From Streptomyces sp. NRRL F-5727 (GTDB lineage: Bacteria; Actinomycetota; Actinomycetes; Streptomycetales; Streptomycetaceae): DNA of 64,000 nt. A model generated the notes under the pieces. It made no database searches, was not told the DNA's origin, and saw only the letters and a program-made list of their open reading frames with translations. Below, piece by piece: positions 37,236-62,455 of this stretch. Position 1 is the first letter of the stretch, and each line of letters starts with the position of its first letter. The DNA lies in the NCBI RefSeq assembly GCF_000719555.1, contig NZ_JOGX01000005.1:124001-188000 (forward strand), in the 5' to 3' direction. The translations under genes were made by a program, and so were the position numbers.

Positions 37236-38102
37236 TCAGAGGCCGAGGTGGTCGCCCAGGTCGGCGTAGTCGACCTGCCACAGGCCGGGAGAGCCCGTGG
37301 GGTACTGGGAGCGGAAGCCGAGCATGCGCTGGACGCGCGGCGAGAGCGTCTTGGCGAGCTCCCTGTCGACCAGGAAGGGGTACGCCTCCTCACCGGTGAG
37401 GAAGCCCGCGTTGAACGCGAAGGCGAGGCCGCGCCGGTACTCGTCGCCGGTCCGGTTCGCTCCGCCGCCGTGCGCGGTCTTGCCGCTGAAGAGAAGGACG
37501 TCCCCGGCGTCCATGACGGCGGGGATCGTCTGCTCGGGGGTCCCGCGGTCCTCGAAGTCGCTCCAGTGGTTGCTTCCGGGGATGACGCGGGTGGCGCCGT
37601 TCTCCTCCGTGAAGTCGGTCAGGGCGACCAGGAAGTTGATGGTGACTTCCGGACCGCTGGGCCCCATGCCGATGAACGGGAACCAGTTCTCCAGGTCACG
37701 GTGGAGCATCTGCGCCTTGTTGCCGGGGCCGATCTCGATCACCTGGGCGGTGGTCATCCAGTACGTGCCCGACTCCCGGAGGAAGACCAGGTCGCTGATC
37801 TCGTGGACCAGGGGGTGGTCGATGACCTCGCTGCGGAACGTGGCGCTGTGCGTCACCAGGTTCGTGAGGCGCTTGGTGTTGCTGCCGTGGAACGCGGCCA
37901 CGATCTCGTCCTCGTGGAGGGACCCCGGGGCGAGCGCCCGCAGCGGCTGCTCGATCTCGGCGTTGAAACGGACGATCTGCTCCTGCCTCAGGAAGCCCTT
38001 GATGATGACGCCGCCGTCACGCGTCACGATCTCGAGGATCTCCTCCGCCGGCGTGTCGTTCGCCACGGACGTCAGCGCCCGGGTCTTCTTCTGTGTCGTC
38101 AT
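37236..38102 (-). CDS. Phytanoyl-CoA dioxygenase (PhyH) family Fe(II)/2-oxoglutarate oxygenase
   Basis: 288 residues. Iron ligands fit HRD (His134, Asp136) and a distal His211 in KTAHGGGANRTGD; the arginine following (RRG, about 223) can bind 2-oxoglutarate. It would hydroxylate an unactivated carbon of an unknown substrate. A good GAAGAGGA ribosome site precedes the ATG. Upstream is a 115-bp block (38222-38336) shared with two other promoters of the catabolic island, suggesting co-regulation. Confidence 0.88.
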   Translation of the reverse strand: MTTQKKTRALTSVANDTPAEEILEIVTRDGGVIIKGFLRQEQIVRFNAEIEQPLRALAPGSLHEDEIVAAFHGSNTKRLTNLVTHSATFRSEVIDHPLVHEISDLVFLRESGTYWMTTAQVIEIGPGNKAQMLHRDLENWFPFIGMGPSGPEVTINFLVALTDFTEENGATRVIPGSNHWSDFEDRGTPEQTIPAVMDAGDVLLFSGKTAHGGGANRTGDEYRRGLAFAFNAGFLTGEEAYPFLVDRELAKTLSPRVQRMLGFRSQYPTGSPGLWQVDYADLGDHLGL

Positions 38103-38221
38103 GCGTGTCCTCTTCCTCGATCCGAAGCGCGGTTGGTCGGCTGTGCGATCAGCTGCGGACGTTCCGTCGTCCGGGGACTCCCGCGCGGCGTCCTCGCGAC
38201 GATCGGGCGGGTCCGGCGGTC

Positions 38222-38336
38222 AGGCGTTTCCGCGTCGTTCCTGTGGTGGTCGTCTCACTGTCGCCAGCCGGTACCGCAGGCGAGAACGACAGCGGGCACC
38301 TGCTTCGCCCGGGCCCGGTGCACGATGCACAGTCCG
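38222..38336 (-). promoter_or_regulatory. Conserved promoter block, site 1 (PhyH gene)
   Basis: In gene direction it holds CTGTGCATCGTGCACCG (13-bp palindromic core GTGCATCGTGCAC at 38318-38330), then GGTGCCCGCTGTCGTTCTC. The whole block matches site 2 (55408-55520) along nearly its full length, including the copied sequence around the site-2 start codon (GGAAACGCC), where here the A of ATG is missing. Confidence 0.75.
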
Positions 38337-38354
38337 GTCGCGGGCACGGCGGAG

Positions 38355-40007
38355 CTATCCGCTCACGGCGTCCTTGCCGGAGTCGACGCGAGCGGCGGGG
38401 GCGTTACGGGCGGAAGCGGGTCCCGACGCCGTGTGCCGGGGGTGTGTGGTCCGCTCCCGGGGACGCGCGCTGCCGAGCCATCCGAGGAGGAAGGCCGCCG
38501 GTACGGAGATCAGGCCGGGGGTGTGGAGCGGGAACAGGTTGAAGTCCTGCTCCGGCAGCAGCGCGTATCTCGTCCCGGACACAGCGGGGGAGGCGAGGGT
38601 CAGAAGGGTGCACAGGGACAGCCCTCCGTAGACGAGCCACAGCAGCCCGTGGCGGTTGAAGCCGGTCCAGAGGAAGGAATAGACGACCGCGGGGAACACG
38701 CACGTGGCCGCGAGGCTCAGCGAGAACGCGAGGAGGAACTCGACGGGGTAGCGGTGTACGGCGGTGGTGAGGAGAAGACTCACGACGCAGAGCACGACGA
38801 CGGAGAGCCGCAGGACCGCCGGCTCTCCGATCCCGATCCGGGCACTGCCCTTCCGCCCGAGCAGGTCGCGGGTCACGGAGACGGCGGCGGCGAAGGTCAC
38901 GCTCGCCACGGCCGTGAGCACGGCGAGGAAGGCGACACAGGCCACGAGGGTGATGAGCACGACCCGGCCGGTGGAGTGGTGGGGAAGCACCTCCGACGCC
39001 AGGAGGATCGGGGCTCCCTGCCCCCGCACGTCGACCGCTCCGATCCGTCCGCTGCCCACCACCGCGGCCGCGGCGAAGCCGGTCGTGATCAGCAGCAGGT
39101 AGAAGAGGCCGGTCAGCCCGACGGCGACGCTCAGTGAGCGCCGGGCGGAGGGCACGTCCCGGCTGGCGCTGACGCGCAGGAGCAGGTGGGGCATCATCGC
39201 GGTTCCGAGGATGACGACGATGTGGTCACTGAGCGTGCCGAGCGGTCCGCCCCCGGCGGAGTGCTCCCACAGCCCGGGGCTGAGGTATCCGCCCGGTGAC
39301 ACGCTCTGGTCCATGGCGGCCGACAGCAGGGATCCGGGACTCCAGTCGAAGAAGCGGAGCGCCAGCAGGGTCACCGCGGCGAGCGTCACCAGGGCCACGG
39401 GCACTTTGGCGACCTGCACGAAACTGGTGCCGCGCAGATCGGCCACTCCTGCGAAGCACGTGACCAGGAATCCCATCAGCACCGTGCACACCACCTGGGC
39501 CGGCTCGCTCGGCATGCCGATCAGAAGGGCGGTGGTGATGCCGCCGGCCCGCAGTTGCACCATGAGCAGGGGCACGGCGATGCACAGGGTCACCACGGCG
39601 CCGGCGATCCGTACGCCCGGCCCCTCGGCGCGCAGGGAGAACAGCTCGCCCAGGGTGTAGCGGCGGGTCGCGCGAATCCTGGAGGCGAGGAGCAGGAAGA
39701 CGCCGAGTGCGAGGGCGCTGTCGACGGCGGTCGAGACTCCGTCGTAGCCGAAGAGGGCGATGGCTCCCGGCAGCGAGACCAGGATGATGACCGTGATCTG
39801 TTCTCCCGCCATCGCGACGCCGTTGAAGACGGGCGGAAGGGACCGGCCGGCGACGTAGAGGCGTTCCGGGTCGTCGTCCTGCGTGGCGAGCGTGAAGACC
39901 CACAGCAGGCAGAGGCCGACGAAGACGAGGAAGGCGCTGATGACCGCGCCCCGCGCGGCGGTGCCGATGAGATCGGGCGAGCCGACGCTCAGGAGGTGCG
40001 TCGTCAC
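38355..40007 (-). CDS. Sodium:solute symporter (SSS family, acetate permease-like)
   Basis: 550 residues with about 13 membrane helices. N-terminal AGRSLPPVFNGVAMAGEQIT is the SSS signature; later motifs include ALALGVFLLLA and the TM6-like GTAMMPHLLLR segment. It starts at GTG 40007 overlapping the stop of the DUF485 gene by four bases, the same pairing as YjcH-ActP in E. coli, where the pair imports short-chain carboxylates. So the product probably imports a carboxylic acid. C-terminal 45 residues are polar. Confidence 0.85.
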   Translation of the reverse strand: MTTHLLSVGSPDLIGTAARGAVISAFLVFVGLCLLWVFTLATQDDDPERLYVAGRSLPPVFNGVAMAGEQITVIILVSLPGAIALFGYDGVSTAVDSALALGVFLLLASRIRATRRYTLGELFSLRAEGPGVRIAGAVVTLCIAVPLLMVQLRAGGITTALLIGMPSEPAQVVCTVLMGFLVTCFAGVADLRGTSFVQVAKVPVALVTLAAVTLLALRFFDWSPGSLLSAAMDQSVSPGGYLSPGLWEHSAGGGPLGTLSDHIVVILGTAMMPHLLLRVSASRDVPSARRSLSVAVGLTGLFYLLLITTGFAAAAVVGSGRIGAVDVRGQGAPILLASEVLPHHSTGRVVLITLVACVAFLAVLTAVASVTFAAAVSVTRDLLGRKGSARIGIGEPAVLRLSVVVLCVVSLLLTTAVHRYPVEFLLAFSLSLAATCVFPAVVYSFLWTGFNRHGLLWLVYGGLSLCTLLTLASPAVSGTRYALLPEQDFNLFPLHTPGLISVPAAFLLGWLGSARPRERTTHPRHTASGPASARNAPAARVDSGKDAVSG

Positions 40008-40279
40008 CACGCGCCCCCGGCCGAACGGGAGTCGGCCGTCGTCGCCGAGGCCGGTTCGAAGGAGGACGCGGCCCGGTTCTCGTACCACCAGGTCCCGCCG
40101 ACGAGGACGACCAGCTGGGTGAATGCCCACGTGATGGCGAGGGTGAGGCGGCCGTACACGGAGATCTCCCCGAGGGACGTGGAGCAGGAGAGCACGACAC
40201 CGACGGCCAGCGGCAGCGCGTTGACGGTGACCAGCACCCGGGTGTCACGAGGGGAATGCTGGGAGGAATCGGAGGGCAC
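40004..40279 (-). CDS. DUF485-like small membrane protein, partner of the symporter
   Basis: 91 residues from a GTG with GAGAGAGG in front. Two hydrophobic helices (VTVNALPLAVGVVLSCS region and LTLAITWAFTQLVVLVGG) then a polar end. DUF485 (YjcH) proteins accompany acetate-type SSS permeases and are needed with them. Stop overlaps the symporter start by four bases, so translation is coupled. Confidence 0.72.
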   Translation of the reverse strand: MPSDSSQHSPRDTRVLVTVNALPLAVGVVLSCSTSLGEISVYGRLTLAITWAFTQLVVLVGGTWWYENRAASSFEPASATTADSRSAGGAW

Positions 40280-40552
40280 GGGACCTCTCTCGGGAAGAAC
40301 GAGGAAGACGGACTCGGCGCGAGGGGGCGCGGAACGGCCGCAGCCGTGGAGGACGGGTGAGGGAGCCGGGCAGCCGTGCTCCGTACCGGTCGGAAGCCAT
40401 GCCGGTGACCGCCGGGATACGACGGTGGCGCGGCGTCCGCGGAGGAGGGCGCACCAGTGCCACGGCGAACGACGGCCTCGACGTGACGTCAGAGCGAGAC
40501 GGCCCGGCCGCGGTGAGGCAGGTGAAGCGCCTCGCACCGCGGGCGTCGGGCG

Positions 40553-41656
40553 TCAGCGGTGGCTGGTCGCGGTCAGGCCGGCGTGGTGCCCGGCCCGCTC
40601 CAGGAGCCGGGGGACTCCTGTTTCGAGCGACGGTCCGAAGACCGTGTCGTGAGGACGCTCGCCCCGCTGCCAGCGGGTGTGGATGGCCTCGCAGAAGATC
40701 GCCGCCTTCCAGAGGGCGAGGGCCTGGTACCAGGGGAGCGGGGTGAGATCGAGGTCGGTGCGGCGCCGGTAGCGGTCTGCCAGTTGGCGCTGGGTGAGGT
40801 AGCCGGGTGAACGGGTCACCTTGGTGAGTTCGAGCGGGGTGGCAGGGCTGCCGGCCTCGGACCAGGTGGCGGTGAGGTACCCCAGGTCCGCGAGCGGGTC
40901 GCCGAGCGTGGCCATCTCCCAGTCGAGGATCGCGAGGACCTCGGCCGGCGCCTGGGGCGCGAACATGAGGTTGCCCATGCGGTAGTCGCCGTGCACCACC
41001 GACGCCGACTGGCTCGTCGGCAGGTTCTGGGCGAGCCAGTCCGCGATGCGCTCCACCGCGGGCAGGCTGCGGGTGGTGTTGACCTCCCAGAGACCGCGGA
41101 ACCGCTCGACCTGTCGACGCAGATACCCCTCGGGGCGGCCCAGGGAGGCGAGTTCCCCATCGGTGACATCGATGCCGTGCAGGGCGACGAGGGTGTCGAC
41201 GACCGCCTCGCTGGTCAGCCGGCGCTGTTCGGCGGGGGAGAGGTGGGGCGGGATCGTGTCGGTGACGATCGTGCCGTCGAGCCGGGACATCAGGTAGAAC
41301 GGCACGCCCAGGACGTCCTCGTCCTCGCAGACGGCGAGGATCTCCGGCACCGGCACCCCGTGCCCGTGGAGGATCTTCTGGATGCGCGCCTCGCGCACCA
41401 TGTCGTGCGTCGACTTCGGCAGCGGCGGGCGCGGGCCGCGGCGCAGGACGACGGACTCGCCGCCGCGTTCGATCAGGTAGGTGACGTTGGAGTGGCCGTC
41501 GCCGATGCGCTGCCACGCGAGCGGTCCGCTGCCGATGCCGTGGGCGTCGAGGAAGCCGGTGACCGCGTCGAGGACGAGGAGGGGAGGGCTGTCGAGATGA
41601 CGGGCCCGCTCGCGGCTCGCGACGACCTCCACGCCGTCGGGGACGGTGTGCATCAC
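40553..41656 (-). CDS. Aminoglycoside-phosphotransferase-fold kinase (ACAD10/11-like)
   Basis: 367 residues. Catalytic VVHGDYRMGNLMF and ILDWEMATLGDPLADLGYL loops, and NVTYLIERGGESVVLRRGPR as the ATP-binding start. Actinobacterial members adjoin acyl-CoA dehydrogenases, as mammalian ACAD10/11 fuse the two; the human enzymes phosphorylate 4-hydroxyacyl-CoA before dehydration. The acyl-CoA dehydrogenase gene immediately upstream overlaps by four bases (GTGA), so the partner fits. Suggests a 4-hydroxyacid step in the pathway. A second possible ATG lies one codon in. Confidence 0.85.
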   Translation of the reverse strand: MMHTVPDGVEVVASRERARHLDSPPLLVLDAVTGFLDAHGIGSGPLAWQRIGDGHSNVTYLIERGGESVVLRRGPRPPLPKSTHDMVREARIQKILHGHGVPVPEILAVCEDEDVLGVPFYLMSRLDGTIVTDTIPPHLSPAEQRRLTSEAVVDTLVALHGIDVTDGELASLGRPEGYLRRQVERFRGLWEVNTTRSLPAVERIADWLAQNLPTSQSASVVHGDYRMGNLMFAPQAPAEVLAILDWEMATLGDPLADLGYLTATWSEAGSPATPLELTKVTRSPGYLTQRQLADRYRRRTDLDLTPLPWYQALALWKAAIFCEAIHTRWQRGERPHDTVFGPSLETGVPRLLERAGHHAGLTATSHR

Positions 41657-42891
41657 GCGCCCCCGTCCCGGCCGACGACGGCGTCGCCCAGGTATCGCTC
41701 ACCGGCCTGGACGGCGGTCCGCCGGCCGGCCGAGGCACGGCGTGCGATGGCCCACCGGTGGGTCTCGTTCGAGCCGTCGTAGATGCGGAACGGACGGACC
41801 TCGTTCAGATACTGGGCCAGCGGCAGTCCGTCGGAGACGCCGTCGCCGCCGCAGATCTGGACGGCACGGTCGATCACCCGGTGGATCGCCTCCGAGCAGT
41901 GGACCTTCGCGACCGAGGACATCGCCGAGCCCGCCTTCGGATCGCTGTGCAGCAGCGCCGCGGTCTTGGTGATGATCGCGTCGGAGGTCTCGATGTCGAT
42001 GACGGACTCGGCGATCAGGTGCTGGGCCAGGCCGAGCGAGTCGATCGGACCGCCGAACAGCTCCCTCTTCGCGGCCCGGTCGAGGGCGATGTCGTGCGCC
42101 CGGCGTGCCAGTCCCAGCCAGCGCATGCAGTGCGTGAGCCGCGCGGGGCCGAGCCGTACCTGCGCGTAGCGGAAGCCGAGCCCGACCTCGCCGAGGACCG
42201 CGTCGTCGGGGACGAAGCAGTTCTCCAGGTACAGGTGCGGGTGGCCGCCGTCGATCGCGCGGTCGACGGTGTGGATCGGCTCGCCGACCCGGATGCCGGG
42301 GTCGGTCAGGTCGACGAGGAACATGGTGGCCCCCTCGGGGAAGCCGTCGCCGGCCGGGGTGCGCGCCATGACGATGCAGAACGCGGCACCCACGGCACCG
42401 CTGGTGAACCGCTTGTGGCCGTCGATGATCCAGCCGCCGTCGGTGCGTACGGCGGTGGTCCGCAGCGCCGCCGGGTCGGACCCGGCTCCGGGGTGGGGCT
42501 CGGTCATGCCGAAGCACGAGCGGACGTCGCCGGCCGCCAGAGGCGCGAGGTAGCGCTTCTTCTGCTCCTCGGTGGCGATGAGGTTCAGCATGTGCATGTT
42601 GCCCTCGTCGGGGGCCATGCAGTTGAGCACGCTGGGACCGATCGGCGAGTACCCGGCCTCCTGCAGGACCGGCGACCAGTGTTCGATGGGCAGGCCCTGC
42701 CCGCCGTACTCCTTCGGTACGAGCGGCGCGAAGACGCCGGCCTCCTTCGCCGCGGTCTGCAGCCGGTCGCGGGTGGCCCGGTCGAGACGTCCGCCCGGTA
42801 CGGGCTCCGCGTCGACGACGACCTCACGGATGAACCGGCGGGTGCGCTCGCGCAGCTCCGCGAACTCCGGCGGAAGGTCAGGGGTGGTCAT
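41653..42891 (-). CDS. Acyl-CoA dehydrogenase
   Basis: 412 residues. Motifs CFGMTEPHPGAGSDPAALRT (FAD/substrate loop) and the C-terminal QICGGDGVSDGLPLAQYLNE with NETHR are typical of the family (ACAD11-like subgroup). Performs alpha,beta-dehydrogenation of an acyl-CoA. Weak ribosome site AAAGGA. Overlaps the kinase gene and is 29 bases from the SDR gene. Confidence 0.92.
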   Translation of the reverse strand: MTTPDLPPEFAELRERTRRFIREVVVDAEPVPGGRLDRATRDRLQTAAKEAGVFAPLVPKEYGGQGLPIEHWSPVLQEAGYSPIGPSVLNCMAPDEGNMHMLNLIATEEQKKRYLAPLAAGDVRSCFGMTEPHPGAGSDPAALRTTAVRTDGGWIIDGHKRFTSGAVGAAFCIVMARTPAGDGFPEGATMFLVDLTDPGIRVGEPIHTVDRAIDGGHPHLYLENCFVPDDAVLGEVGLGFRYAQVRLGPARLTHCMRWLGLARRAHDIALDRAAKRELFGGPIDSLGLAQHLIAESVIDIETSDAIITKTAALLHSDPKAGSAMSSVAKVHCSEAIHRVIDRAVQICGGDGVSDGLPLAQYLNEVRPFRIYDGSNETHRWAIARRASAGRRTAVQAGERYLGDAVVGRDGGA

Positions 42892-42920
42892 GGCAGTCCT
42901 TTGTGGGAGGGTCGAGGTCG

Positions 42921-43688
42921 TTACGCGGTGCCGCCGGCGACCGTGAGGCCGCCGTCGACGGTGAGGACGTGGCCGGTGACCCAGGAGGCGTCCTCCGAGG
43001 CCAGGTACGCCACGGCGGAGGCGATGTCGGAGGGCACGCCCAGGCGCCGCAGGGGGTAGTCGGCGGCCACCTCGGCTTCCCTGCCCTCGTACAGGGCTTC
43101 GGCGAACCGCGTCTTGACGACGGCGGGGGCCACGGCGTTGACGCGGACCTCCGGGCCGAGCTCGACGGCCAGGGTCCTGGTCAGGTGGGAGACGGCGGCC
43201 TTGCTGACTCCGTAGAGGCCGATGCCGGGTGACGGGGTGTCGCCGGTGACGGAGGAGAGGTTCACGACGGTGCCGCCGCGCTCGGTGAAACCGAGCTTCG
43301 GATGGGCCACGGCGTCCTGCACCCAGGCGAGGGGGGCCAGGACGTTGACCTCCAGCACCTTGCGGGCGACGTCGAGGTCCAGGCCGACGACGGGGCCGTA
43401 GGCCGGGTTGATGCCCGCGTTGTTCACGAGGACGTCGAGCCCGCCGAACTCGCGCGCGACGGTGTCGAAGACCTCGCGGCGGTGCTCGGGATCGTCCGCC
43501 CTGCCGGCGACGGTGACGACACTGCCCGGGGGAAGGGTGGCGGCGGCCTCTTCGAGGGGGCCGGCCTTGCGCGCGGTCAGGCACACGCGCGCTCCTTCGG
43601 CGACGAGGCGTTCGGCGACGGCGAGGCCGATGCCCCGGCTCGCTCCGGTGATGACGGCGGTGCGTCCGGAGAAACGATTCTGACTCAT
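42921..43688 (-). CDS. Short-chain dehydrogenase/reductase
   Basis: 255 residues with TGASRGIG cofactor loop, NNAG, catalytic Ser in NLSSVTG and YGVSK (Tyr, Lys). Oxidises a hydroxyl such as 3-hydroxyacyl-CoA. Lies three bases from the stop side of the ligase gene upstream, within the same run. Confidence 0.92.
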   Translation of the reverse strand: MSQNRFSGRTAVITGASRGIGLAVAERLVAEGARVCLTARKAGPLEEAAATLPPGSVVTVAGRADDPEHRREVFDTVAREFGGLDVLVNNAGINPAYGPVVGLDLDVARKVLEVNVLAPLAWVQDAVAHPKLGFTERGGTVVNLSSVTGDTPSPGIGLYGVSKAAVSHLTRTLAVELGPEVRVNAVAPAVVKTRFAEALYEGREAEVAADYPLRRLGVPSDIASAVAYLASEDASWVTGHVLTVDGGLTVAGGTA

Positions 43689-43691
43689 GGA

Positions 43692-45362: not shown

Positions 45363-45404
45363 CTGCCGTCCTTCCCACCCGTGTCCGTGCGCTCGGCGCG
45401 CCGG

Positions 45405-52960: not shown

Positions 52961-53879
52961 GGCTGCCTCCTTCACCCACGCGGGTCGCGTGCTGCGCGAT
53001 GTAGGTCGTGAGGGGGTCGACGAGGGACTCGGGGAGGTGATGGCCCATGCCGGGAATGACCACGTGCTGGGCCGAGCGGATCGCCTCGACCGTCGCGACG
53101 CCGCCGCTCGGGTTCACCAGGGGGTCCCGGTCGCCGTGGATGACCAGCGTCGGGGCGGTGATCCGGCTCAGCTGGGCCGTCCGGTCCCCGGAGCGCTGGA
53201 TCGCCTGGATCTGGCGCGCCGTGCCGGCCGCCGGGTCGCCGCCGCTGCGGTCCCAGCCGCGCGCCGCGATGGCCGCCTCGGCCGCGTCGTCGATGGGATG
53301 TTCCGTTCCCGCGATGTGACGGGTGAGCCTCAGATGGGCACGGACCGCCGCGGTTCTGTTCCTCGCCGGCGGGGCGGCGAGGAGCCGGATCGTCGACAGC
53401 GCCGGCTGCCCGACCTTGCGCGCCCCGGTGGTGGAGTAGAGGGAGGCCAGCGACAGGACCCGCTCGGGCGCCGTGGCCGCGATCGTCTGCGCGATCATCC
53501 CGCCCATCGACCGCCCGACCAGGTGCACCCGCGCGATCCCGAGATGGTCGAGTACGCCGACGGCGTCCTGGGCCATGTCGGCCAGCGTGTACGCGTCGCC
53601 GCGCGGACGCGCGGCGATCTGACGCAAGAGCCCGGGAGGGGGCGAGGCGACGAACGTCGACTGGCCGGCGTCGCGGTTGTCGATCGCGACGACCCGGAAA
53701 CCGCGGGCGACGAGGGAGCCGACGAACGAGTCGGACCAGAAGGTGAGGTCTTCGCCCAGTCCCGCGATGAGCAGCATCGCGGGGTCGTCCTCGTCGCCGT
53801 GGTCCCGGAAGCAGATCGTCATCCCGGACGGCAGGGTCGCGTACCGGTCGCCGCTCTCGACGGCGCTCGTCTCAGGCAC
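52944..53879 (-). CDS. Alpha/beta hydrolase
   Basis: 311 residues. Catalytic triad visible: Ser in GRSMGG, Asp in HGDRDPLV and His in GMGHHLPE. No lid signature. Between a Baeyer-Villiger-type monooxygenase gene (overlap 8 bases) and an amine oxidase gene (overlap 17 bases), so it most likely opens the ester or lactone that the monooxygenase produces. Confidence 0.9.
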   Translation of the reverse strand: MPETSAVESGDRYATLPSGMTICFRDHGDEDDPAMLLIAGLGEDLTFWSDSFVGSLVARGFRVVAIDNRDAGQSTFVASPPPGLLRQIAARPRGDAYTLADMAQDAVGVLDHLGIARVHLVGRSMGGMIAQTIAATAPERVLSLASLYSTTGARKVGQPALSTIRLLAAPPARNRTAAVRAHLRLTRHIAGTEHPIDDAAEAAIAARGWDRSGGDPAAGTARQIQAIQRSGDRTAQLSRITAPTLVIHGDRDPLVNPSGGVATVEAIRSAQHVVIPGMGHHLPESLVDPLTTYIAQHATRVGEGGSHVRIS

Positions 53880-55407: not shown

Positions 55408-55520
55408 GGCGTTTCCTCGCTGTTCCTGTGGCGGTTACCTCACTGTCGCGAGCCGCGACCGCCTGCGAGAACGACAGCGGGCACCTCCTTCGCCGGGGCT
55501 CGGTGCACGATGCACAGGCG
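55408..55520 (-). promoter_or_regulatory. Conserved promoter block, site 2 (monooxygenase operon)
   Basis: In gene direction: CTGTGCATCGTGCACCG (palindrome GTGCATCGTGCAC at 55503-55515), GGTGCCCGCTGTCGTTCTC, then a GACAGTGAGGTAACCGCCAC part reaching the ribosome site GAGGAAACGCC. Nearly identical to site 1. Confidence 0.8.
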
Positions 55521-56023
55521 GACCGGGCCGCTGCGCCCGTACGGTGTCCGACGTTCGGGCGGGGGCCCCGGCCGCGCCTGCGGCCCGGCCCTTCCGGGAG
55601 CAGGGCGGCCGGATCCCGCCGCCCGGCGGACGGTCGTGCCGCAGCCATGACGGAAGCAGGACCGGCGCGGTAGAGGTTTACTCCCGGCGTTTAGTGGTAC
55701 TAAACGTCTCGTCGTGGTCGTGCGCAGAGGACGTACCCGCTGTCGTCACGACCTCGCTGCGCGTCGCGCCCCCCCCGGTTGTGTCGAGCCGCAGGGGAAT
55801 CGCCGCCGTCGCTCCCGTGATCGCGGCCGAGCGGAAGCGGCCGACGACCCGGAACCCGCACGGGGCCACGTCTTCTCGGGCGGCAGGAGCCGCCTCCCGC
55901 CGCTCCGGCCCAGCCACCGTGAGGAAGCCGCACCCGTTCGTGCGCGCAGGCGCACCGCTCCACGCACTCCTTCACCCACCCATGACGAGCCGGTACCGGC
56001 CCGTGAGCCGAAAGGTGATCGCG
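55521..56023. other. Upstream region of the permease gene, no intact gene
   Basis: About 500 bases. It holds motif 2 (55676-55705) and, at about 55723-55762, a short stretch encoding DVPAVVTTSLRV that resembles EPAVVTTSPRV in the downstream oxidoreductase (58336-58371), a possible gene relic. No complete gene or ribosome-site-backed frame seen. Confidence 0.5.
55676..55705. promoter_or_regulatory. Motif 2 operator (permease gene)
   Basis: GTTTAGTGGTACTAAAC (55689-55705), a palindrome with GTTTA/TAAAC arms, preceded at 55676 by the half-site GTTTACTCCC. The same 17-bp pattern, with two changes, lies before the PucR gene at 61088. Confidence 0.7.
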
Positions 56024-57472
56024 ATGACCGACCTCTCCAAGACAGGGCACGCCGAAGCACCCGGCGGTGCAGCGGGATCGGGCAACCCGCTCCACCGCGG
56101 GCTCGGCGTGTCGCAGATCGTGTTCATGGTCGTCGCGGCGGCGGCACCGCTCGGCCTCGTGGCCGGCGGGGTGCCGCTCGCCTTCGCCGTGAGCGGCAGC
56201 CCGGGAATGCCGCTGTACTTCGCGCTGTCCACCGTGCTGCTGCTGGTCTTCGCGGTCGGCTTCACGCTGATGGCCGGACGGGTACGCGACGCGGGGGCCT
56301 TCTACGCCTACGTCCAGGCGGGGCTGGGCCGGATCCCCGGTCTCTCGGCGGCGACCCTCGCGCTCTTCTCCTACACGCTGCTTCTCGTCGGGGTGAACGC
56401 CTATGTTGGGGTCGCGACGAGCAACGTCATCGAGCGGTACGCCGACGTCGGCTCCCCGTGGTGGGCCTGGGCGCTCGTCTCGCTCGGCGTCATCGCCTTC
56501 CTCGGCTACCGCGACATCGAGTTGAGCGCCAAGGTGCTCGGTGCCGTGCTGGTGCTGGAGTCCCTGCTGCTCCTGGTCCTGGACCTCGGCATCGTGGGCC
56601 ACGGCGGCGCCCACGGCCTGACGGCCGAGCCGGTGTCGCCCTCGATCGTGGGCACCGGCTCCCTGGGCCTCGGCGTCATGTTCGCCCTCTTCGGGTTCAT
56701 CGGCTTCGAGGCGACGGCGGTGTTCCGCAACGAGGCGAAGGACCCCGACGTCACGGTCCCGCGGGCGACGTACGTCGCGATCCTGGTGATCGGAGCCTTC
56801 TACTCGTTCACCGTGTGGGCGATCGTGGTGGGTTCCGGCGTCGACGCCGTGGTCGGAGCCGCGCAGGCCGACCCCGAGGGCCTGGTCCTCACGCTGACGC
56901 GGAGCTACGTGGGGTCCGTCTGGGCCGACGCCATGCAACTCCTGCTGATCACCAGCCAGTTCGCTTGCGTACTGGCCTTTCACAACGTCGTGACGCGCTA
57001 CCAGTTCGCGCTGGCCCGGGCCGGCGCGCTTCCGGCGTCGCTGAGCGTCGTCCACCCCCGGCACCGCGCGCCGTCGGCGTCCTCGGCCGTCGCCTCGGCG
57101 GTCGCGTTCGTCACCACGCTCGTCGTCGCCTCGCTCGGCCTCGACCCGATCGGGGACCTCTACGCCTGGTTCTCCGGTGCCGCCACCCTCGGCATCGTCC
57201 TGCTGATGGCGGCCACCAGCCTCGCCGTCATCGGCTTCTTCCGTCGCGCCGACGGGCGGCAGTCGGTGTGGCGGACGGTCGCGGCCCCGGCCGTCGCCTT
57301 CCTCGGCCTGGCCTGCGTGGTCTGCCTGATGGTCGCCAACTTCCCGCTCCTCGTCGGCACCACCACCGGTGCCTGGGTGATCGGCGGCCTCGTCGCCCTC
57401 TCGGCCGTGGCCGGCGCGGTGCAGGCCCTCGTCCTGCGCGCGCGCCGACCGGCTGTCTACGAGCGACTCTGA
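56024..57472 (+). CDS. APC-family amino acid/amine permease
   Basis: 482 residues, about 12 membrane helices. Start VSQIVFMVVAAAAPLG and FALFGFIGFEATAVFRNEAKDPDVTVPRA (only part quoted: FGFIGFEATAVFRNEAKDP) are APC signatures. Imports an amino acid or amine at the cell membrane, probably the substrate of the nearby oxidases. Start 56024 has AAAGG eight bases before. Motif 2 lies about 320 bases upstream. Confidence 0.9.
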   Translation: MTDLSKTGHAEAPGGAAGSGNPLHRGLGVSQIVFMVVAAAAPLGLVAGGVPLAFAVSGSPGMPLYFALSTVLLLVFAVGFTLMAGRVRDAGAFYAYVQAGLGRIPGLSAATLALFSYTLLLVGVNAYVGVATSNVIERYADVGSPWWAWALVSLGVIAFLGYRDIELSAKVLGAVLVLESLLLLVLDLGIVGHGGAHGLTAEPVSPSIVGTGSLGLGVMFALFGFIGFEATAVFRNEAKDPDVTVPRATYVAILVIGAFYSFTVWAIVVGSGVDAVVGAAQADPEGLVLTLTRSYVGSVWADAMQLLLITSQFACVLAFHNVVTRYQFALARAGALPASLSVVHPRHRAPSASSAVASAVAFVTTLVVASLGLDPIGDLYAWFSGAATLGIVLLMAATSLAVIGFFRRADGRQSVWRTVAAPAVAFLGLACVVCLMVANFPLLVGTTTGAWVIGGLVALSAVAGAVQALVLRARRPAVYERL

Positions 57473-57512
57473 GCGACGTGCCGGTCAGCTCATGAGCGCA
57501 AGGGCGCGGCCG

Positions 57513-57568
57513 GTCTGTGCACCGTGCACCGCCCTCGGAGGAAGCCGGTGCCCGGTGTCGTTCTCACC
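57513..57568 (+). promoter_or_regulatory. Conserved promoter block, site 3 (oxidoreductase operon)
   Basis: CTGTGCACCGTGCACCG (palindrome GTGCACCGTGCAC at 57517-57529, fully symmetric here) followed by GGTGCCCGGTGTCGTTCTC. Same order and spacing as sites 1 and 2 but on the plus strand, 150 bases before the operon it faces. Confidence 0.75.
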
Positions 57569-57678
57569 ACGGCCGTGGCCTGTGACGGTGGGGTACCAGG
57601 CAACCGCCACCGGCGAAGTCAGGTTTCGCCGAGCACCGTGTCGTGGGCGGGCCGACCGAGGCGCCCGAGGGAGTGACG

Positions 57679-58791
57679 TTGAAGATTCGGACTGTCGTGG
57701 TGGGGCTCGGCGCCACCGGCCGGGCCATCGCCTCCTCCCTGCTGCGACGCGCGGACGTGGAGATCGTGGGAGCGGCGGACCGGGACCCCCGCGTGGTCGG
57801 TCAGGACCTCGGAGTGCTCCTCGGCGGCGTCGCGAACGGTGTCGTCGTCGTGAGCGACCCGGCCGAGCTGCCCGCCGCCGACCTCGCGATCGTGGCGACC
57901 GTCTCGGATCTGCACAGGGCGGCCGACGTCCTGCTGCCGCTGCTGGAGCGTTCGTACAACGTCCTGAGCATCTGCGAAGAGCTGGCCCATCCATGGCGGA
58001 GCCACCCCGATCTGGCCCGGCGGCTCGACGACACGGCGAAGGCACACGGCGTGACCGTCCTGGGCAGCGGGGCGAACCCGGGCGTCCTGATGGACACCCT
58101 TCCCCTCCTCCTGACCGCACTGACCCAGCGTGTGGAGAGCGTGCGGATCCGCCGGCGGACCGACATGTCACGCTACGGCGCGATCCTGGCGAAGTTCGGC
58201 CTCGGTCTGACCCCGCGCGAGTTCGCGACGGCTCGCAGCCGTGGCGAGGTCGTCGGCCACCACGGCTTCGAGCAGGCCATCGGGGCGCTCGCGGCAGGGC
58301 TCGGATGGGATCTCGACTCGGTGGACGTGGGAGAGGTCGAACCCGCCGTCGTGACGACTTCGCCGCGCGTCGGGGACCACATGCGTATCGAACCGGGACA
58401 GATCGCGGCGGTCACGCACGCCGCCCGGGGCGTGCTCAAGGGCGACGTGGTGATCGATCTGGAGATCACGTTCGGGTTCTTCGAGCCGGCCGACGAGACG
58501 GCCGCGGGCGACGACTACCGGATCGTCGGAGAGGAGCAGGTCGTCGGCCTCCGTTCCTCCGTGGGCTTCGACTCCTTCCTCAGCACCGTCGCGGCGGCGG
58601 TCAACGCCTCCGCCGCGGTCGTCGAGGCGCGTCCCGGTCTCCTGTCGATGGGGGACCTGCCCGCGCGCTCGGTCGCGGCCAAGGGAGAGCGGCGAGCGGG
58701 CCGGGCCTCGCTCGGGGCCACGCATTCTCGGGACCGAGAGAGCACGACGTGGGGCGGACGCCCCACCTGGAAGGAGAGCGGGACAGCATGA
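57679..58791 (+). CDS. DapB-like NAD(P)-dependent oxidoreductase (2,4-diaminopentanoate dehydrogenase-like)
   Basis: 370 residues from a TTG with GAGGGAG at good spacing; GTG 57673 and 57643 are alternatives. Rossmann start TVVVGLGATGRAIASSLL; the central GSGANPGVLMDTLPLLLTAL is typical of DapB-fold dehydrogenases such as 2,4-diaminopentanoate dehydrogenase. It may remove an amino group from an amino acid by oxidation. Stop overlaps the flavin oxidase start by four bases. The C-terminal 50 residues are arginine-rich and unlike the family. Confidence 0.75.
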   Translation: MKIRTVVVGLGATGRAIASSLLRRADVEIVGAADRDPRVVGQDLGVLLGGVANGVVVVSDPAELPAADLAIVATVSDLHRAADVLLPLLERSYNVLSICEELAHPWRSHPDLARRLDDTAKAHGVTVLGSGANPGVLMDTLPLLLTALTQRVESVRIRRRTDMSRYGAILAKFGLGLTPREFATARSRGEVVGHHGFEQAIGALAAGLGWDLDSVDVGEVEPAVVTTSPRVGDHMRIEPGQIAAVTHAARGVLKGDVVIDLEITFGFFEPADETAAGDDYRIVGEEQVVGLRSSVGFDSFLSTVAAAVNASAAVVEARPGLLSMGDLPARSVAAKGERRAGRASLGATHSRDRESTTWGGRPTWKESGTA

Positions 58792-60152
58792 GGACCGACA
58801 ACACGAAGTACAGCAGCTTCACCGGCTGGATCGACCCGCCGGCCGACGTGCAGCCCGCGCTGGACGGCGACCTGACCTGCGACATCGCCGTCATCGGCGG
58901 CGGCATGGGTGGCATGGCGGCTGCGCTGCGCCTCGCGGAGCGCGACCAGGACGTCGTCCTGCTGGAGGCCGAGTTCTGCGGCTACGGCTCGGCCTCGCGC
59001 AACGGCGGGCAGATCGCCGGGGCGCCGGGCGGCGACCTGCGGATGCTCAGCCTCCAGTCCCCGAAGAAGATGCCGGTCATGGCCAGACTGGCGGAGCACG
59101 CGGGCCGCTACGTGGAAGACCTCATCAAGAGGCACGACATCGACTGCGACTACGTGGCGAACGGCCTGGTGTGGGGTGCGGTCTCACCCCTCATGATGCT
59201 CAGGGTGCGTACCCAGGCGGCCATCCTGCGCGCCTTCGGTGGGGGCGGGACCGTCGGCAGCAGAGAGGAGCTCGGCCTCCCCGCCGGCTTCGTGGGCGGG
59301 ATGCGGGAATCCATCGGCGGGATGCTGAACCCGGGCAAGCTCGCCCGTGGTGTGCGCCGCGCACTGCTCGCCTCCTCGGCCAGGGTCTTCGAGCGGACGC
59401 GGGTGAGCGATGTCCGGCGCACGGGCGGCATCGTCGAGATCACGACACCGCACGGCACGGTGCGGGCCGACAAGGTGCTGCTCGCGACCAGCGTCTACGG
59501 CGGCGAGTGGGACATCACGCCCAAGAACCTCGCGACGCCGCTGTACGTCATCGAGATCGAGTCGGAACCCATCGCGCCGGAGCGGCTCGCCGCGCTGGAC
59601 TGGACCAGCCGGTCCGGCATCATCACCCAGCACCAGTTGATGACCCACTACCGGCTCACCGAGCGCAACACCATCGTCTGCGGGGTCCGCACAGCGCAGC
59701 GAGGCCAGACCTACCCGCTCCCGGACCGGGTCCCGGACCCCGCTGTCGTGCGGGACATGGGGAAGGATCTGGCCAACCGGTTCCCGTCGCTGTCCGACGT
59801 GGCCATCGAGCGGGCCTGGGGCGGTTGGATCGGCATCAGCCCGGACTGGCTGTCGGTCGCCGGGCAGGTGGGTGACAACGTCTTCTACGCGATGGCCTGC
59901 AACGGCCACGGCCTCTGCCAGGTGCCGTACGTGACCCATCAGCTCGCCGACTACATCGTCGACGGCGAGATGCCGGAGGACCTCGCCGGCATCTGGTCGG
60001 ACGCCCCGAAGTACTCGCCGTCGATGTCGCTGTTGCTGCAGCCGTTCGTCCTCCGGGCCGTCTGGGGGCTGGACCGGTTCAACGACTTCTTCAACGGCAG
60101 CAGGACACGGGCCCGGCGGGCGCTCCGTCGTGGCAGGCGCGGGGGTTCCTGA
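58788..60152 (+). CDS. FAD-dependent amine/amino-acid oxidase (DadA/PuuB-like)
   Basis: 454 residues. Opening CDIAVIGGGMGGMAAALRLAE; ASRNGGQIAG active-site loop; C-terminal GWIGISPDWLSVAGQVGDNVF and CNGHGLCQVPY, as in gamma-glutamylputrescine oxidase/DadA-type enzymes. Oxidises an amine or a D-amino acid. Coupled (ATGA) to the DapB-like gene. With the permease upstream it forms a transport-oxidation module. Confidence 0.9.
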   Translation: MRTDNTKYSSFTGWIDPPADVQPALDGDLTCDIAVIGGGMGGMAAALRLAERDQDVVLLEAEFCGYGSASRNGGQIAGAPGGDLRMLSLQSPKKMPVMARLAEHAGRYVEDLIKRHDIDCDYVANGLVWGAVSPLMMLRVRTQAAILRAFGGGGTVGSREELGLPAGFVGGMRESIGGMLNPGKLARGVRRALLASSARVFERTRVSDVRRTGGIVEITTPHGTVRADKVLLATSVYGGEWDITPKNLATPLYVIEIESEPIAPERLAALDWTSRSGIITQHQLMTHYRLTERNTIVCGVRTAQRGQTYPLPDRVPDPAVVRDMGKDLANRFPSLSDVAIERAWGGWIGISPDWLSVAGQVGDNVFYAMACNGHGLCQVPYVTHQLADYIVDGEMPEDLAGIWSDAPKYSPSMSLLLQPFVLRAVWGLDRFNDFFNGSRTRARRALRRGRRGGS

Positions 60153-60285
60153 GGGCCGGGCGACGGCTGCTCCGTGACGACGCGGGGTGAGAGCGCCACC
60201 CGCTACGACGAGACCGCCGGGTCCTGCGAGACAGCCGCCGCCCCCGCACCACTCCTGACGCGGGCCCGGCATGCGACGACAGGAT

Positions 60286-60894
60286 CTAGGCGGGCCCTCG
60301 CGCGGCGCGCGGCAGGGGAGGCGACAGGACCCAGAGGACCTCGCTCACCGTCGTACCCGGATTGTCGAACTGGTGAAGCGTCCGGCCGGAGAACGACGTG
60401 GACGCCCCTTCCGACAGCATCCGGGTCTCGCCCCCGACGATCAGACGGGTCGAACCGCTCAGCCCCATCGCGAAGATCGTGGCAGTGTCGAGCCGATAGG
60501 GGCCTCCGGTGCCCCCGCCCGGCTCGATCACGGAACGGAAGACCTGGAACGCCGTGGCGCCGGCGGGCGTGAGCAGGTACTCGGCCACGCCCTCACCGCC
60601 CATGCCGATCCGGCTTCCGCCGTCCACGACCTGCTCGTCGGGGTACGCGAACAGCTCCCCGACCCCGATCCGCAGCACCTCGCAGACGCGCAGCAACGTG
60701 GGGACGGACACGCTGGTGAGCCCACGCTCCAACTGGCTCAGAAAGCCCTTGGTGACCTCTGCCCGGTGCGCGACCTCCGTCAACGACAGGCCGCGGTCGA
60801 GCCTGATCCTCCGCAGCTGCGCGCCGGTGGACGCTTCGAGGGCGGCGGCGCCCCGTTCCGCTCCGTCTGCTGTCCCGCCGTCACCGATGGACAT
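60286..60894 (-). CDS. XRE-family regulator with cupin domain (PuuR-like)
   Basis: 202 residues. Helix-turn-helix near 30-85 (LRRIRLDRGLSLTEVAHRA, KGFLSQLERG) and a cupin sensor domain in the C-terminal 100 residues (FRSVIEPGGGTGG, HQFDNPGTT). PuuR-like proteins repress polyamine or amino-acid catabolic genes and bind the substrate in the cupin. Divergent from the PucR gene; a candidate reader of the GTGCAYCGTGCAC palindromes, although this is a guess. Start 60894 has only a weak GAGCA-type site. Confidence 0.88.
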   Translation of the reverse strand: MSIGDGGTADGAERGAAALEASTGAQLRRIRLDRGLSLTEVAHRAEVTKGFLSQLERGLTSVSVPTLLRVCEVLRIGVGELFAYPDEQVVDGGSRIGMGGEGVAEYLLTPAGATAFQVFRSVIEPGGGTGGPYRLDTATIFAMGLSGSTRLIVGGETRMLSEGASTSFSGRTLHQFDNPGTTVSEVLWVLSPPLPRAARGPA

Positions 60895-61219
60895 GGTGTG
60901 CTCACCGCCCGTCCCGAGGCCGAGGTCGTGTGCCCGTCAGGTGACAGGCCGACCCGGACGAGTCCTCTCCGTGGCACGAGGCTAAGGCATGCGTTCCAGG
61001 GGCGGCCGGTGCGCCCCTGCGGAGGGGGAGAGGGCGATGGTGCCGAACCCCTTGTGGTGCCGACGAGAGCGTGGTAAATCTGCCGCCGTTTAGTGGGAGT
61101 AAACAGCGGCGGAGGGCGACGCCTTCGCCGTCGGCCAGGCCGCCGACAAGCCCTTCACCGGGCTGGGACACGGCATGTCGGGAGCCTCGGCTCCCCGAGA
61201 GCAGAGGGACACTGAGAAC
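60895..61219. other. Divergent regulatory region between the two regulator genes
   Basis: 325 bases without a gene. Contains motif 2 at 61088-61104 inside a larger CCGCCGTTTA/TAAACAGCGGCGG palindrome. No block of the site 1-3 type is present, so these regulators have different control. Confidence 0.6.
61088..61104. promoter_or_regulatory. Motif 2 operator (PucR gene)
   Basis: GTTTAGTGGGAGTAAAC, matching the permease site at 15 of 17 positions and flanked by CCGC/GCGG symmetry. 115 bases before the PucR start codon. Confidence 0.72.
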
Positions 61220-62455
61220 ATGGAAGAGCTGTGGCCCCCGCCCTCGCGTGAGGTCGCCGATGCGATCAGGTCCCTGTGCCAGCGCCTGCTGACGGAAACG
61301 GACGCCCTGATCGACGCCTTCGCAAGGCCCTCTCTCGTCGCCCAGAACGATCCCGCTCTCCTCGCGGACGCGTCGCTGGTCGAGGAGGACCGCGCGCTCA
61401 ACCGCTCTGAGGTGGTCCAGTGGTTGACCGCGAACGTTCAGCAACCGGGGCGGAGGGTGGAGCCCTACGTCAGTCCGAGGACCACGGCGTACATCAACGA
61501 CCTCGTCTCCCGGGGCATCGCGCCCGACTTCGCCGTCGCCTGGCGTGTGGCCCTGGGGATCGGCTGGCGGCGATGGCTGGAGGAATGCGTGGCGGACTGC
61601 GCGGACCCCGATCTCCTCGTGGGGGTCCTGGACGTGACGGCGCAGTCGCTGGTGCAGTACGCCCTCGACTCCGTCGCGGCCCTGCGGCAGGCCGGCCTCG
61701 CCGCGGCGATGGGGAACACGGACGCCGAGGGAATCGCGATGATCCAGCTGATCGCCAGTGGGGCACCGATGGCGGAGGACCTCGCCGAAGGACGCCTGCG
61801 CTACCGGATGGCGCGGTGGCACGTGGGCCTCGTCCTCTGGGTCGACGATCCCCAGCAGGCCGGTGCCTTGGACGAGGCGATCGCCGCCGTGCGCTCCTCC
61901 GCCGGAGGCCGGAGCGCCCTGGTGGCGCGCGCCAGCGCCACGTCGCGGTGGATCTGGCTTTCGGGGGAAACCGTCCCGGACCTGCACCACGCGGAGAAGG
62001 CCCTCGCGGCGACCGACGCGGTCCGCGCGGCGGTGGGAAGGCCGGGACGCGGACTCGAAGGATTCCGCTCCAGCCACCAGGACGCCCTCGCGGCGCAGGC
62101 GCTCGTGATCCGGCTGGGTTCCGGCCGGCGGTTCACCGCCTACGCCGACGTCGAGCTGATCGACGCGCTCACCAAGGACCGGCCCGGCGCGCGTCGGTTC
62201 GTCGTCAACACCCTCGGGCCGTTGGCCGAAGCCGACACGGCCCTGCGGCAGGCACTGCTCACCTACGTGCAGTGCGGCTTCAGCACCACCCGGGCGGCCG
62301 CCGACCTCTACGCGCACCGCAACACCGTCGAACGGCGCGTCTCACGGGCCAACGAGCTCTCGGCCGTCAAGGTGGAGGAGAACCCGACCCACGTGGCGGC
62401 GGCGCTCCTGGTACTGGACATCGCGCCTGACATCGTGACGATCGCTCCGGGCTGA
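61220..62455 (+). CDS. PucR-family transcriptional regulator
   Basis: 411 residues. Central GGDEF-like region (about 150-330) without catalytic residues, and a C-terminal PucR helix-turn-helix, LTYVQCGFSTTRAAADLYA with HRNTVERRV. Such proteins activate nitrogen-source genes on ligand binding. Start 61220 chosen with AGAGGGA upstream; 61175 is possible. Last gene of the catabolic island; probably its activator. Confidence 0.85.
   Translation: MEELWPPPSREVADAIRSLCQRLLTETDALIDAFARPSLVAQNDPALLADASLVEEDRALNRSEVVQWLTANVQQPGRRVEPYVSPRTTAYINDLVSRGIAPDFAVAWRVALGIGWRRWLEECVADCADPDLLVGVLDVTAQSLVQYALDSVAALRQAGLAAAMGNTDAEGIAMIQLIASGAPMAEDLAEGRLRYRMARWHVGLVLWVDDPQQAGALDEAIAAVRSSAGGRSALVARASATSRWIWLSGETVPDLHHAEKALAATDAVRAAVGRPGRGLEGFRSSHQDALAAQALVIRLGSGRRFTAYADVELIDALTKDRPGARRFVVNTLGPLAEADTALRQALLTYVQCGFSTTRAAADLYAHRNTVERRVSRANELSAVKVEENPTHVAAALLVLDIAPDIVTIAPG

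Follow-up and report, generated by a model that had tools for sequence, protein, structure and literature searches.

Brevibacterium oxydans IH-35A converts cyclohexylamine to adipate by means of the amine oxidase CHAO followed by the monooxygenase CHMO, and CHAO is reported to prefer alicyclic and sec-alkyl amines (PMC3608611). The lva operon of Pseudomonas putida KT2440, which serves levulinate, is described in PMC6692424 and PMC12440821. Here we analyse a cluster of 19 genes from Streptomyces sp. NRRL F-5727 (contig NZ_JOGX01000005.1), which occupies positions 37236 to 62455 of a 64,000-nucleotide stretch referred to as the window. The cluster resembles the first system in the logic of a MAO-family amine oxidase followed by a Baeyer-Villiger monooxygenase (BVMO), and the second, together with mammalian ACAD10/11, in encoding an SSF symporter, CoA ligase, SDR, APH kinase and an acyl-CoA dehydrogenase with a catalytic Asp. 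Two further systems are compared. The polyamine puu/γ-glutamyl pathways likewise contain a PuuR-like XRE regulator, an APC permease, an FAD oxidase and an aldehyde dehydrogenase, whereas the Streptomyces cluster has a BVMO-hydrolase core and no γ-glutamyl enzymes among its 19 genes. The lower nicotine pathway of pAO1 (mao, mabO, sad, pmfR) shares the combination of MAO, DAO, a succinate-semialdehyde dehydrogenase (SSADH)-like enzyme and a PucR-type regulator, while the Streptomyces locus has a monooxygenase/hydrolase core instead. The data presented below indicate that the cluster is a real, conserved and co-regulated amine-catabolic regulon, as judged from its sequence. The proteins it encodes are as follows.

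37236..38102, minus strand: PhyH-family 2-oxoglutarate dioxygenase, 288 aa (PF05721, E 2e-37)
38355..40088 (upper coordinate approximate), minus strand: sodium:solute symporter (SSF), monocarboxylate-type, start uncertain (PF00474; NCBIfam MctC model 298 bits, cut-off 670)
40553..41656, minus strand: APH-fold kinase (APH), ACAD11-kinase-like, 367 aa (PF01636; ACAD11 structures)
41653..42891, minus strand: acyl-CoA dehydrogenase (ACAD), ACAD11/LvaC type, 412 aa, with catalytic Asp (best PDB matches ACAD11)
42921..43688, minus strand: SDR oxidoreductase, 255 aa (PF13561)
43692..45362, minus strand: AMP-forming acyl-CoA ligase 1 (CoAL1), 556 aa (PF00501)
45405..46961, minus strand: AMP-forming acyl-CoA ligase 2 (CoAL2), 518 aa (PF00501, longer reading frame)
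47062..48318, minus strand: class III aminotransferase (AT3), HemL-like, 418 aa (PF00202, longer reading frame; HemL models 333 and 320 bits, below cut-offs of 398 and 527)
48336..49451, minus strand: zinc alcohol dehydrogenase (ADH), 371 aa (PF00107/PF08240, longer reading frame; NDMA-dependent ADH model 341 bits, cut-off 440)
49480..50838, minus strand: aldehyde dehydrogenase (ALDH), SSADH-like, 452 aa (PF00171, longer reading frame; NCBIfam 457 bits, cut-off 730)
50865..51569, minus strand: TM6 membrane protein, 234 aa, no Pfam family (overlaps MAO by 4 bp)
51566..52960, minus strand: flavin amine oxidase (MAO), 464 aa (PF01593, E 3e-70, reading frame with longer start)
52944..53879, minus strand: alpha/beta hydrolase (ABH), 311 aa, GRSMG nucleophile motif (PF00561)
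53872..55407, minus strand: class B flavin monooxygenase (FMO) with Baeyer-Villiger fingerprints, 511 aa (motifs; PDB matches to BVMOs)
55982..57472, plus strand: APC-family amino acid/amine permease, start uncertain (PF00324, longer reading frame)
57643..58791, plus strand: ORD, 2,4-diaminopentanoate-dehydrogenase/native-amine-dehydrogenase-like, start uncertain (PF19328)
58788..60152, plus strand: DAO-family FAD oxidase (DAO), 454 aa (PF01266; AmaA model 111 bits, cut-off 600)
60286..60894, minus strand: XRE-cupin regulator, PuuR-like (HTH_31, Cupin_2; PuuR model 41 bits, cut-off 211)
61175..62455, plus strand: PucR-type regulator (GGDEF_2 and HTH_30; PF17853, PF13556)

The twelve minus-strand genes from 55407 down to 40553 (FMO, ABH, MAO, TM6, ALDH, ADH, AT3, CoAL2, CoAL1, SDR, ACAD and APH) form a dense run, as an earlier note on this DNA had stated; all 11 intergenic gaps lie between -17 and +100 bp, and four are overlaps of 4-17 bp. 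The PhyH and SSF genes stand outside the run, beyond gaps of 252 and 464 bp. Families were assigned by Pfam and NCBIfam, several calls being made on open reading frame (ORF) versions with longer starts. These assignments uphold the enzymes named in the earlier note, which overlooked the 234-aa membrane protein encoded at 50865-51569, and replace its 'DapB-like' label for 57643-58791, the product of which is a PF19328 (2,4-diaminopentanoate dehydrogenase/native amine dehydrogenase) protein. The two regulators that it placed beside the run are the XRE-cupin (60286-60894) and PucR-type (61175-62455) proteins.

When the regions preceding 19 FMO genes, from the window and 18 relatives, were aligned, conserved blocks emerged that form a composite operator comprising GTGCATCGTGCAC, 25 bp, CTGTCGT, 21 bp and GCGACAG. 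The window contains three copies.

55443..55515, minus strand: composite operator upstream of the FMO operon, 0/27 mismatches
38258..38330, minus strand: composite operator ~155 bp upstream of the PhyH gene, 0/27 mismatches
57517..57588, plus strand: composite operator upstream of ORD-DAO, 4/27 mismatches

Through this common operator the PhyH gene and the divergently oriented ORD-DAO pair are linked with the main operon. The genome-wide searches that returned matches used patterns of the first two blocks only. One such pattern, in which two letters were made degenerate to fit the ORD site, gave eight matches at up to three mismatches in the 7.9-Mb genome, comprising the three cluster sites at 0 mismatches and five others at 3, compared with one match for the reversed control. 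A stricter pattern matched twice, both times in the cluster, and its control not at all, while the pattern CTGTCGTTCTCGCN{8,14}CGACAG, in which the gap range is too short, found no matches. The operator is thus present at several promoters, and the two-block pattern fitted to these sites has no other perfect match in the genome, the distribution expected of a single regulon. The force of this argument lies in the occurrence of the same element at unrelated promoters of one genome.

A scan of genome contigs with MAO provided 51 loci extending at most 10 kb to either side, so that absences of genes derive in part from locus edges. FMO and MAO are both present at 60% identity or more in 26 of these, hereafter core loci, of which 16 are from Streptomyces and 10 from other genera (Amycolatopsis, Streptoalloteichus, Arthrobacter sp. 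NtRootA1, Nocardioides, Tetrasphaera and Mycobacterium/Mycolicibacterium), a range that extends from Streptomyces to Mycobacterium. The gene set recurs in these loci, with an order that varies outside Streptomyces. When sites with more than 6/27 mismatches were dropped, the 51 loci contained 54 operator sites, 48 in the core loci, each of which has at least one, and six in the remaining 25. All but one of the sites (53/54) lie within 450 bp of, and face, FMO (23), ORD (7), an MFS transporter of the relatives (7), MAO (7), TM6 (5) or PhyH (4); the last faces none of them. Core-locus sequence (1.08 Mb) shuffled by dinucleotide yielded 0 sites at up to five mismatches, two at six and nine at seven. 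The recurrence of the operator in all 26 core loci, facing cluster genes, points to a conserved regulon. Three mycobacterial core loci that lack the operator at FMO carry it at TM6 and MAO. In four further loci (L027, L028, L029 and L030) a MAO of 72-74% identity lies under the composite operator (4-6 mismatches), and in three of the four it is located downstream of PhyH. In Tetrasphaera the operator (5 mismatches) precedes an MFS-ALDH-ADH-CoAL1-SDR-ACAD-APH run, linking the 4-hydroxyacid genes with this control in a second genus as well.

All 16 Streptomyces core loci and 7/10 of the others have the PucR gene in range, and this co-occurrence (23/26) suggests that the PucR-type protein probably binds the composite operator. 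The genome contains a distinct palindrome, GTTTAGTNNNASTAAAC, at just two positions, 55689 and 61088, as follows.

55689..55705, no strand assigned: palindrome GTTTAGTGGTACTAAAC upstream of the permease gene, candidate XRE-cupin site, 0 expected by shuffling
61088..61104, no strand assigned: GTTTAGTGGGAGTAAAC between the XRE and PucR genes, second genomic copy of the palindrome

This palindrome, probably the XRE site, is found in 12/16 Streptomyces core loci, the same 12 that contain the XRE-cupin gene (14 by a looser count), and in 0/10 other core loci, where an XRE gene was not found in range.

Gene content, counted from matches of at least 40% identity irrespective of coverage, is consistent with a conserved core. 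In the Streptomyces loci ABH, TM6, ADH, ALDH and AT3 are each in range in 16/16, and in the other core loci in 7, 9, 8, 5 and 3 of the 10, respectively, while ACAD is in range in 11/16 and 1/10. By these counts the cluster varies least in FMO, ABH, MAO, TM6 and PucR, and it appears to be conserved across actinobacterial genera to an extent greater than chance. Within the genus, a close FMO (89-100% identity; matches above E 1e-80 were left out) is restricted to five of 295 genomes, the strain's own included. The MAO of S. flaveolus JCM 4032 shows 98% identity. The description of the locus as an island is consistent with this patchy spread but not with its base composition, GC being 0.71 in 36001-62000, 0.72 before and 0.68 after. 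Acinetobacter has a MAO of 72% identity on a 21-kb segment that holds neither FMO nor ABH. No description of this gene combination was found in the titles and abstract openings of the open-licence literature.

The assignment of FMO as a type I BVMO is backed by both fingerprints of these enzymes, FEGRIVHPQHWP at 170 and GGTWDLFRYPGIRSD at 49, the consensus patterns of which are FxGxxxHxxxW[P/D] and [A/G]GxWxxxx[F/Y]P[G/M]xxxD. The motifs are present in 25/27 and 27/27 FMO sequences, respectively, the window included (for this count and that of ACAD below, sequences of less than 44% identity or 85% length were dropped). The PDB matches of FMO are to BVMOs over the N-terminal part, and those to CHMO chains score 81-90 bits over only about residues 2-230.

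Over its whole length MAO is most similar to the bacterial monoamine oxidase 8p84 (290 bits), with CHAO, MAO-A and putrescine oxidase scoring 195-199 bits (CHAO 195); the match to 7rt0, a methylamine-forming 4-methylaminobutanoate oxidase, is only 49.7 bits. Equal proximity to CHAO and putrescine oxidase holds for these whole-length scores and not for the last 100 residues, where 8p84 scores 66 bits, CHAO, the second-best match, 58, MAO-A 50-53 and putrescine oxidase at most 33. Pro398 and Thr435 occupy the positions of the MAO-A cage tyrosines 407 and 444. CHAO has the same Pro (GGP in both enzymes) but retains the second cage tyrosine, Tyr459, with which Thr435 is aligned (the numbering of the printed CHAO chain is offset from that of the paper). 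The Pro is found in 38/47 aligned MAO relatives with a residue at this position, and all 31 loci that have a MAO of at least 65% identity with a residue at the second cage position carry Thr, Ser or Cys there, two more being gapped; the two loci gapped at cage positions and two without a MAO match were left out of these counts. An Ile of MAO aligns with the position of Glu324 of putrescine oxidase, in a chain that may be a mutant; this Glu binds the second amino group of the substrate. The preference of CHAO for alicyclic and sec-alkyl amines fits a chain that runs from amine to ketone to BVMO. The Pro in common with CHAO, together with the second-best C-terminal match, makes an alicyclic or sec-alkyl amine a possible substrate of MAO, and such a substrate would suit the BVMO.

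ORD scores 244 bits against the 2,4-diaminopentanoate dehydrogenase model NF040740 (cut-off 400) and 196 bits against 6g1h, and lies closest to the AmDH4/2,4-diaminopentanoate dehydrogenase side. It thus shares the PF19328 domain with the 2,4-diaminopentanoate and native amine dehydrogenases covered in PMC11164908, but is below the NCBIfam equivalog cut-off and is an accessory in this cluster. In Rhodococcus koreensis a plasmid carries a BVMO from a different family, for which PtlE is the best NCBIfam model (259 bits against a cut-off of 1100); genes for ADH, ALDH, DAO, TM6, a flavin amine oxidase and a protein resembling 3-aminobutyryl-CoA ammonia-lyase lie beside it. The presence of a different BVMO family in this amine set suggests that separate lineages joined a BVMO to amine genes. 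The ammonia-lyase-like gene (12283-12660 of locus L096) scores 155 bits against a cut-off of 160.

At the other end of the operon, the best PDB matches of ACAD are ACAD11 chains, and it shares 45% identity with LvaC. ACAD contains the catalytic Asp and an Arg/His/Arg cluster aligned to the ACAD10/11-LvaC residues, a cluster described as unique to these enzymes. The Asp (RIYDG) is conserved in 13/13 sequences. APH scores 154-157 bits against ACAD11 structures (kinase domain) and 225 bits against 9o56, and its gene overlaps that of ACAD by 4 bp. The pair is predicted to be of the type that processes 4-hydroxyacyl-CoA via 4-phosphoacyl-CoA, and SDR, the CoA ligases, SSF, APH and ACAD together correspond to the set of functions in the levulinate (lva) route. 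These genes do not represent a simple lva operon, however, as ACAD alone is fairly close (45%), the values for APH, SSF and SDR being 27-34%. No LvaB match was found among the 19 cluster proteins of the window; LvaB is also absent from one published lva cluster. The Streptomyces locus differs further from the lva operon in having a PucR-type in place of a PrpR-like regulator, and in that its lva-type genes are embedded in an amine/BVMO operon and encode APH, SSF and SDR with 27%, 29% (to LvaG) and 34% identity, respectively, to the copies of the Pseudomonas aeruginosa plasmid p12939-PER.

In p12939-PER an lva operon (lvaB annotated) lies directly beside cluster-type genes whose products are related to those of the window: FMO 50%, ABH 47%, two PhyH proteins 59% and 36%, DAO 33% and TM6 42% identity. 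An ALDH, an iron ADH, a permease and two aminotransferases are also encoded there. The KT2440 neighbourhood PP_2799-PP_2805 may resemble this cluster. Likewise, a contig of Acinetobacter lactucae (genome G690) contains within ~60 kb an lva operon, an APH-ACAD pair, PhyH proteins, FMO and TM6-DAO, with FMO 31 kb and TM6 49 kb from the lva operon. LvaC matches at 1e-60 occur in 195 plasmid records, and in five of five other plasmid lva operons examined from this set, matches to FMO, DAO and TM6 are absent within 15 kb; a general link between lva and BVMO genes was rejected on this ground. LvaC is found at 1e-120 in 6/293 Pseudomonadales genomes; the FMOs are more than 560 kb away in G940, the one FMO listed for G962 is on another contig, and G803 is not among the genomes listed with an FMO match. 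The association of lva with BVMO/amine genes is therefore suggestive and not general. In A. lactucae G690 (contig C9, ~48-106 kb) an AdeABC-like multidrug RND efflux pump operon, assigned by profile to the generic RND family, lies between the FMO/PhyH genes and TM6-DAO. RND pump genes are also found beside the p12939-PER cluster.

The model that we propose, and hold at about an even chance, is that the locus is a regulon for aliphatic-amine catabolism in which the PucR-type protein acts on the two-part operator at the FMO-to-APH run, PhyH and ORD-DAO. The gene families, fingerprints, operon spacing, operator conservation and cross-genus conservation are supported by the sequence analyses; the order of steps, the pairing of regulator with operator and the substrate we infer. 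The amine would be imported by the APC permease, perhaps with TM6, and deaminated to a carbonyl compound by MAO and, in some strains, also by DAO and ORD. Oxygen insertion by the BVMO would be followed by ester or lactone cleavage by the alpha/beta hydrolase, and the released alcohol may be oxidized by ADH and then ALDH. A further amino group could be removed by AT3 before CoA activation. In strains with the relevant genes, reduction by SDR, phosphorylation by APH and dehydrogenation/dephosphorylation by ACAD would deliver a 4-oxo or 4-hydroxy acid into β-oxidation, as in the LvaD-LvaA-LvaC/ACAD11 route. A broader view, which we regard as a tentative and rather doubtful possibility, is that of an undescribed amine pathway of Actinomycetota and Pseudomonadota in which a TM6-teamed amine oxidase feeds a BVMO/esterase and, in several lineages, an ACAD11/Lva-type exit. 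If correct, amine oxidation, Baeyer-Villiger chemistry and the recently described 4-hydroxy-acid kinase/dehydrogenase route would be joined in one inducible regulon, the ACAD11/Lva-type route would gain one natural upstream substrate, and the conserved operator would be the genomic signature of the pathway in Actinomycetota. The operator would offer a sequence probe for finding regulon members, and the substrate, in actinobacteria, and the cluster yields a candidate BVMO, amine oxidase and amine dehydrogenase.

Several observations weigh against the regulon and, in particular, its 4-hydroxyacid exit. The operator consensus was derived from the sequences that were subsequently scanned, and the close Streptomyces loci are not independent of each other. 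A search of the Rhodococcus, Tsukamurella and proteobacterial loci gave no site with up to six mismatches; on the Tsukamurella plasmid FMO is preceded at a distance of 43 bp by a match with seven mismatches, a level that chance also produces. PucR is out of range in 3/26 core loci, and two of the 27 FMO sequences lack the first BVMO motif. DAO (7/16 Streptomyces and 4/10 other core loci) and ORD (7/16 and 2/10) look like optional members. The identity between APH and LvaA is just 27% over 195 aa, and APH, ACAD and SDR are in range in just 1/10 non-Streptomyces core loci. When ACAD was sought in ten whole genomes of core loci, Tetrasphaera gave a match of 74% (in the cluster) and Amycolatopsis one of 56% (on another contig), the best match was at most 43% in the next seven, including two Streptomyces at 37-38%, and the Arthrobacter genome had no match at 1e-40. 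The scarcity of a close ACAD among the relatives searched indicates that the ACAD11-type end does not belong to the cluster of every lineage. The five lva operons that lack cluster-type neighbours, of seven examined, count against the link in the same way.

The route put forward in the earlier note, in which cyclohexylamine (or cyclopentylamine) is converted via a lactone to adipate or glutarate, has the right set of enzymes, as amine oxidase, BVMO, hydrolase, ADH, ALDH and CoA activation do appear to form one catabolic unit. Its front end draws on the Pro398 that MAO shares with CHAO and on the C-terminal similarity of the two enzymes, and relatives of ORD among the native amine dehydrogenases accept ketones (PMC11164908). 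Compared with B. oxydans IH-35A, however, Thr435 replaces the cage residue Tyr459, the whole-length CHAO score is no better than those of putrescine oxidase and MAO-A and falls far below that of 8p84, FMO is not close to CHMO, and the ACAD/kinase pair is of the 4-hydroxyacyl-CoA (ACAD11/LvaC) and not the adipyl-CoA type; the Acinetobacter MAO, moreover, lacks an accompanying FMO or ABH within its 21 kb. The generic logic of that proposal stands, its adipate end is not supported, and an alicyclic amine is a tentative candidate substrate. The complete cyclohexylamine-to-adipate reading, which does not gain from the rest of the operon, is weak, and we give it little weight. A second catabolic alternative invokes 4-amino/4-oxo acids such as 4-aminopentanoate or levulinate-like compounds, with ORD and AT3 making the 4-oxo acid, the lva-like genes completing its breakdown and the BVMO and hydrolase providing a parallel cut of a methyl ketone. 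This would account for the lva-type gene set, for the presence of FMO, PhyH, DAO and TM6 near lva operons in P. aeruginosa and A. lactucae, and for the affinity of ORD with the AmDH4/2,4-diaminopentanoate dehydrogenase side, enzymes that act on amino-oxopentanoate and have also been adapted for levulinate (PMC11164908). The absence of ORD from range in 9/16 Streptomyces core loci, the other plasmid lva operons devoid of such neighbours and the lack of a close ACAD in most relatives searched make it a similarly small probability.

A polyamine regulon for putrescine- or spermidine-like substrates, in which the BVMO and hydrolase act on a side product or a conjugated polyamine, is unlikely. The ALDH resembles SSADH and aminobutyraldehyde dehydrogenases, and the class III aminotransferase, APC permease, PuuR-like XRE regulator and DAO would all be at home in such a pathway. 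In Tsukamurella, genes for a glutamine-synthetase-like protein and an annotated γ-glutamyl-GABA hydrolase family member lie beside FMO-ABH and DAO-TM6, similar genes were noted in Rhodococcus from reading of translations, and a γ-aminobutyraldehyde dehydrogenase is annotated in the P. aeruginosa plasmid cluster. By contrast, the BVMO, 4-hydroxyacyl-CoA kinase and PhyH are superfluous in plain polyamine pathways, MAO has an Ile at the position aligned, in a possibly mutant chain, with putrescine oxidase Glu324, and putrescine oxidases match its last 100 residues poorly. A biosynthetic tailoring cluster might also be considered, as natural-product clusters too hold flavin monooxygenases, SDRs and aminotransferases, but it is very improbable given that the 19 genes include no polyketide or peptide synthase and are dominated by catabolic enzymes and two uptake-type transporters, and that the locus has spread across Mycobacterium, Arthrobacter and Nocardioides.

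The cluster would also provide a functional neighbourhood for the uncharacterized TM6 family, which has 686 homologues at E 0.001 or less and no Pfam model. TM6 adjoins or is near DAO or MAO in Actinomycetota, proteobacterial plasmids and Acinetobacter, and thus in two phyla; its relatives include those in loci L092, L093, L095, L096 and L101, and most of the named NCBI entries listed say just 'transporter'. Among 38 sequences the invariant residues include E36, D69, R73, H90 and D179. The AlphaFold model contains about seven transmembrane helices (pLDDT 86.9), and a function based on fold (7TM receptor or rhodopsin) was set aside as the structural matches were not clearly above the helical-bundle background. 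An annotated c-type cytochrome gene in Caballeronia, and an apparent one in Cupriavidus (CxxCH motif identified by eye), lies between the amine oxidase and TM6. TM6 may be a transporter or an electron-transfer partner of the oxidase. In A. lactucae a 41-residue TM6 remnant with a stop (G690:C10:108362-108484) is apparently located just downstream of the 72% MAO.

At the edge of the cluster, a GAF-SpoIIE-HATPase gene (34998-37187, minus strand) lies directly beyond PhyH and marks an apparent boundary. An ORF on the plus strand (60271-61077) and several of the ORFs selected first were dropped as genes, having no family and the wrong codon-position GC. Elsewhere in the window, 2334-11069 (plus strand) encodes a protein of 2911 aa with RHS repeats and with SpvB and TcdB_midN domains that resembles the B component of Tc toxins.

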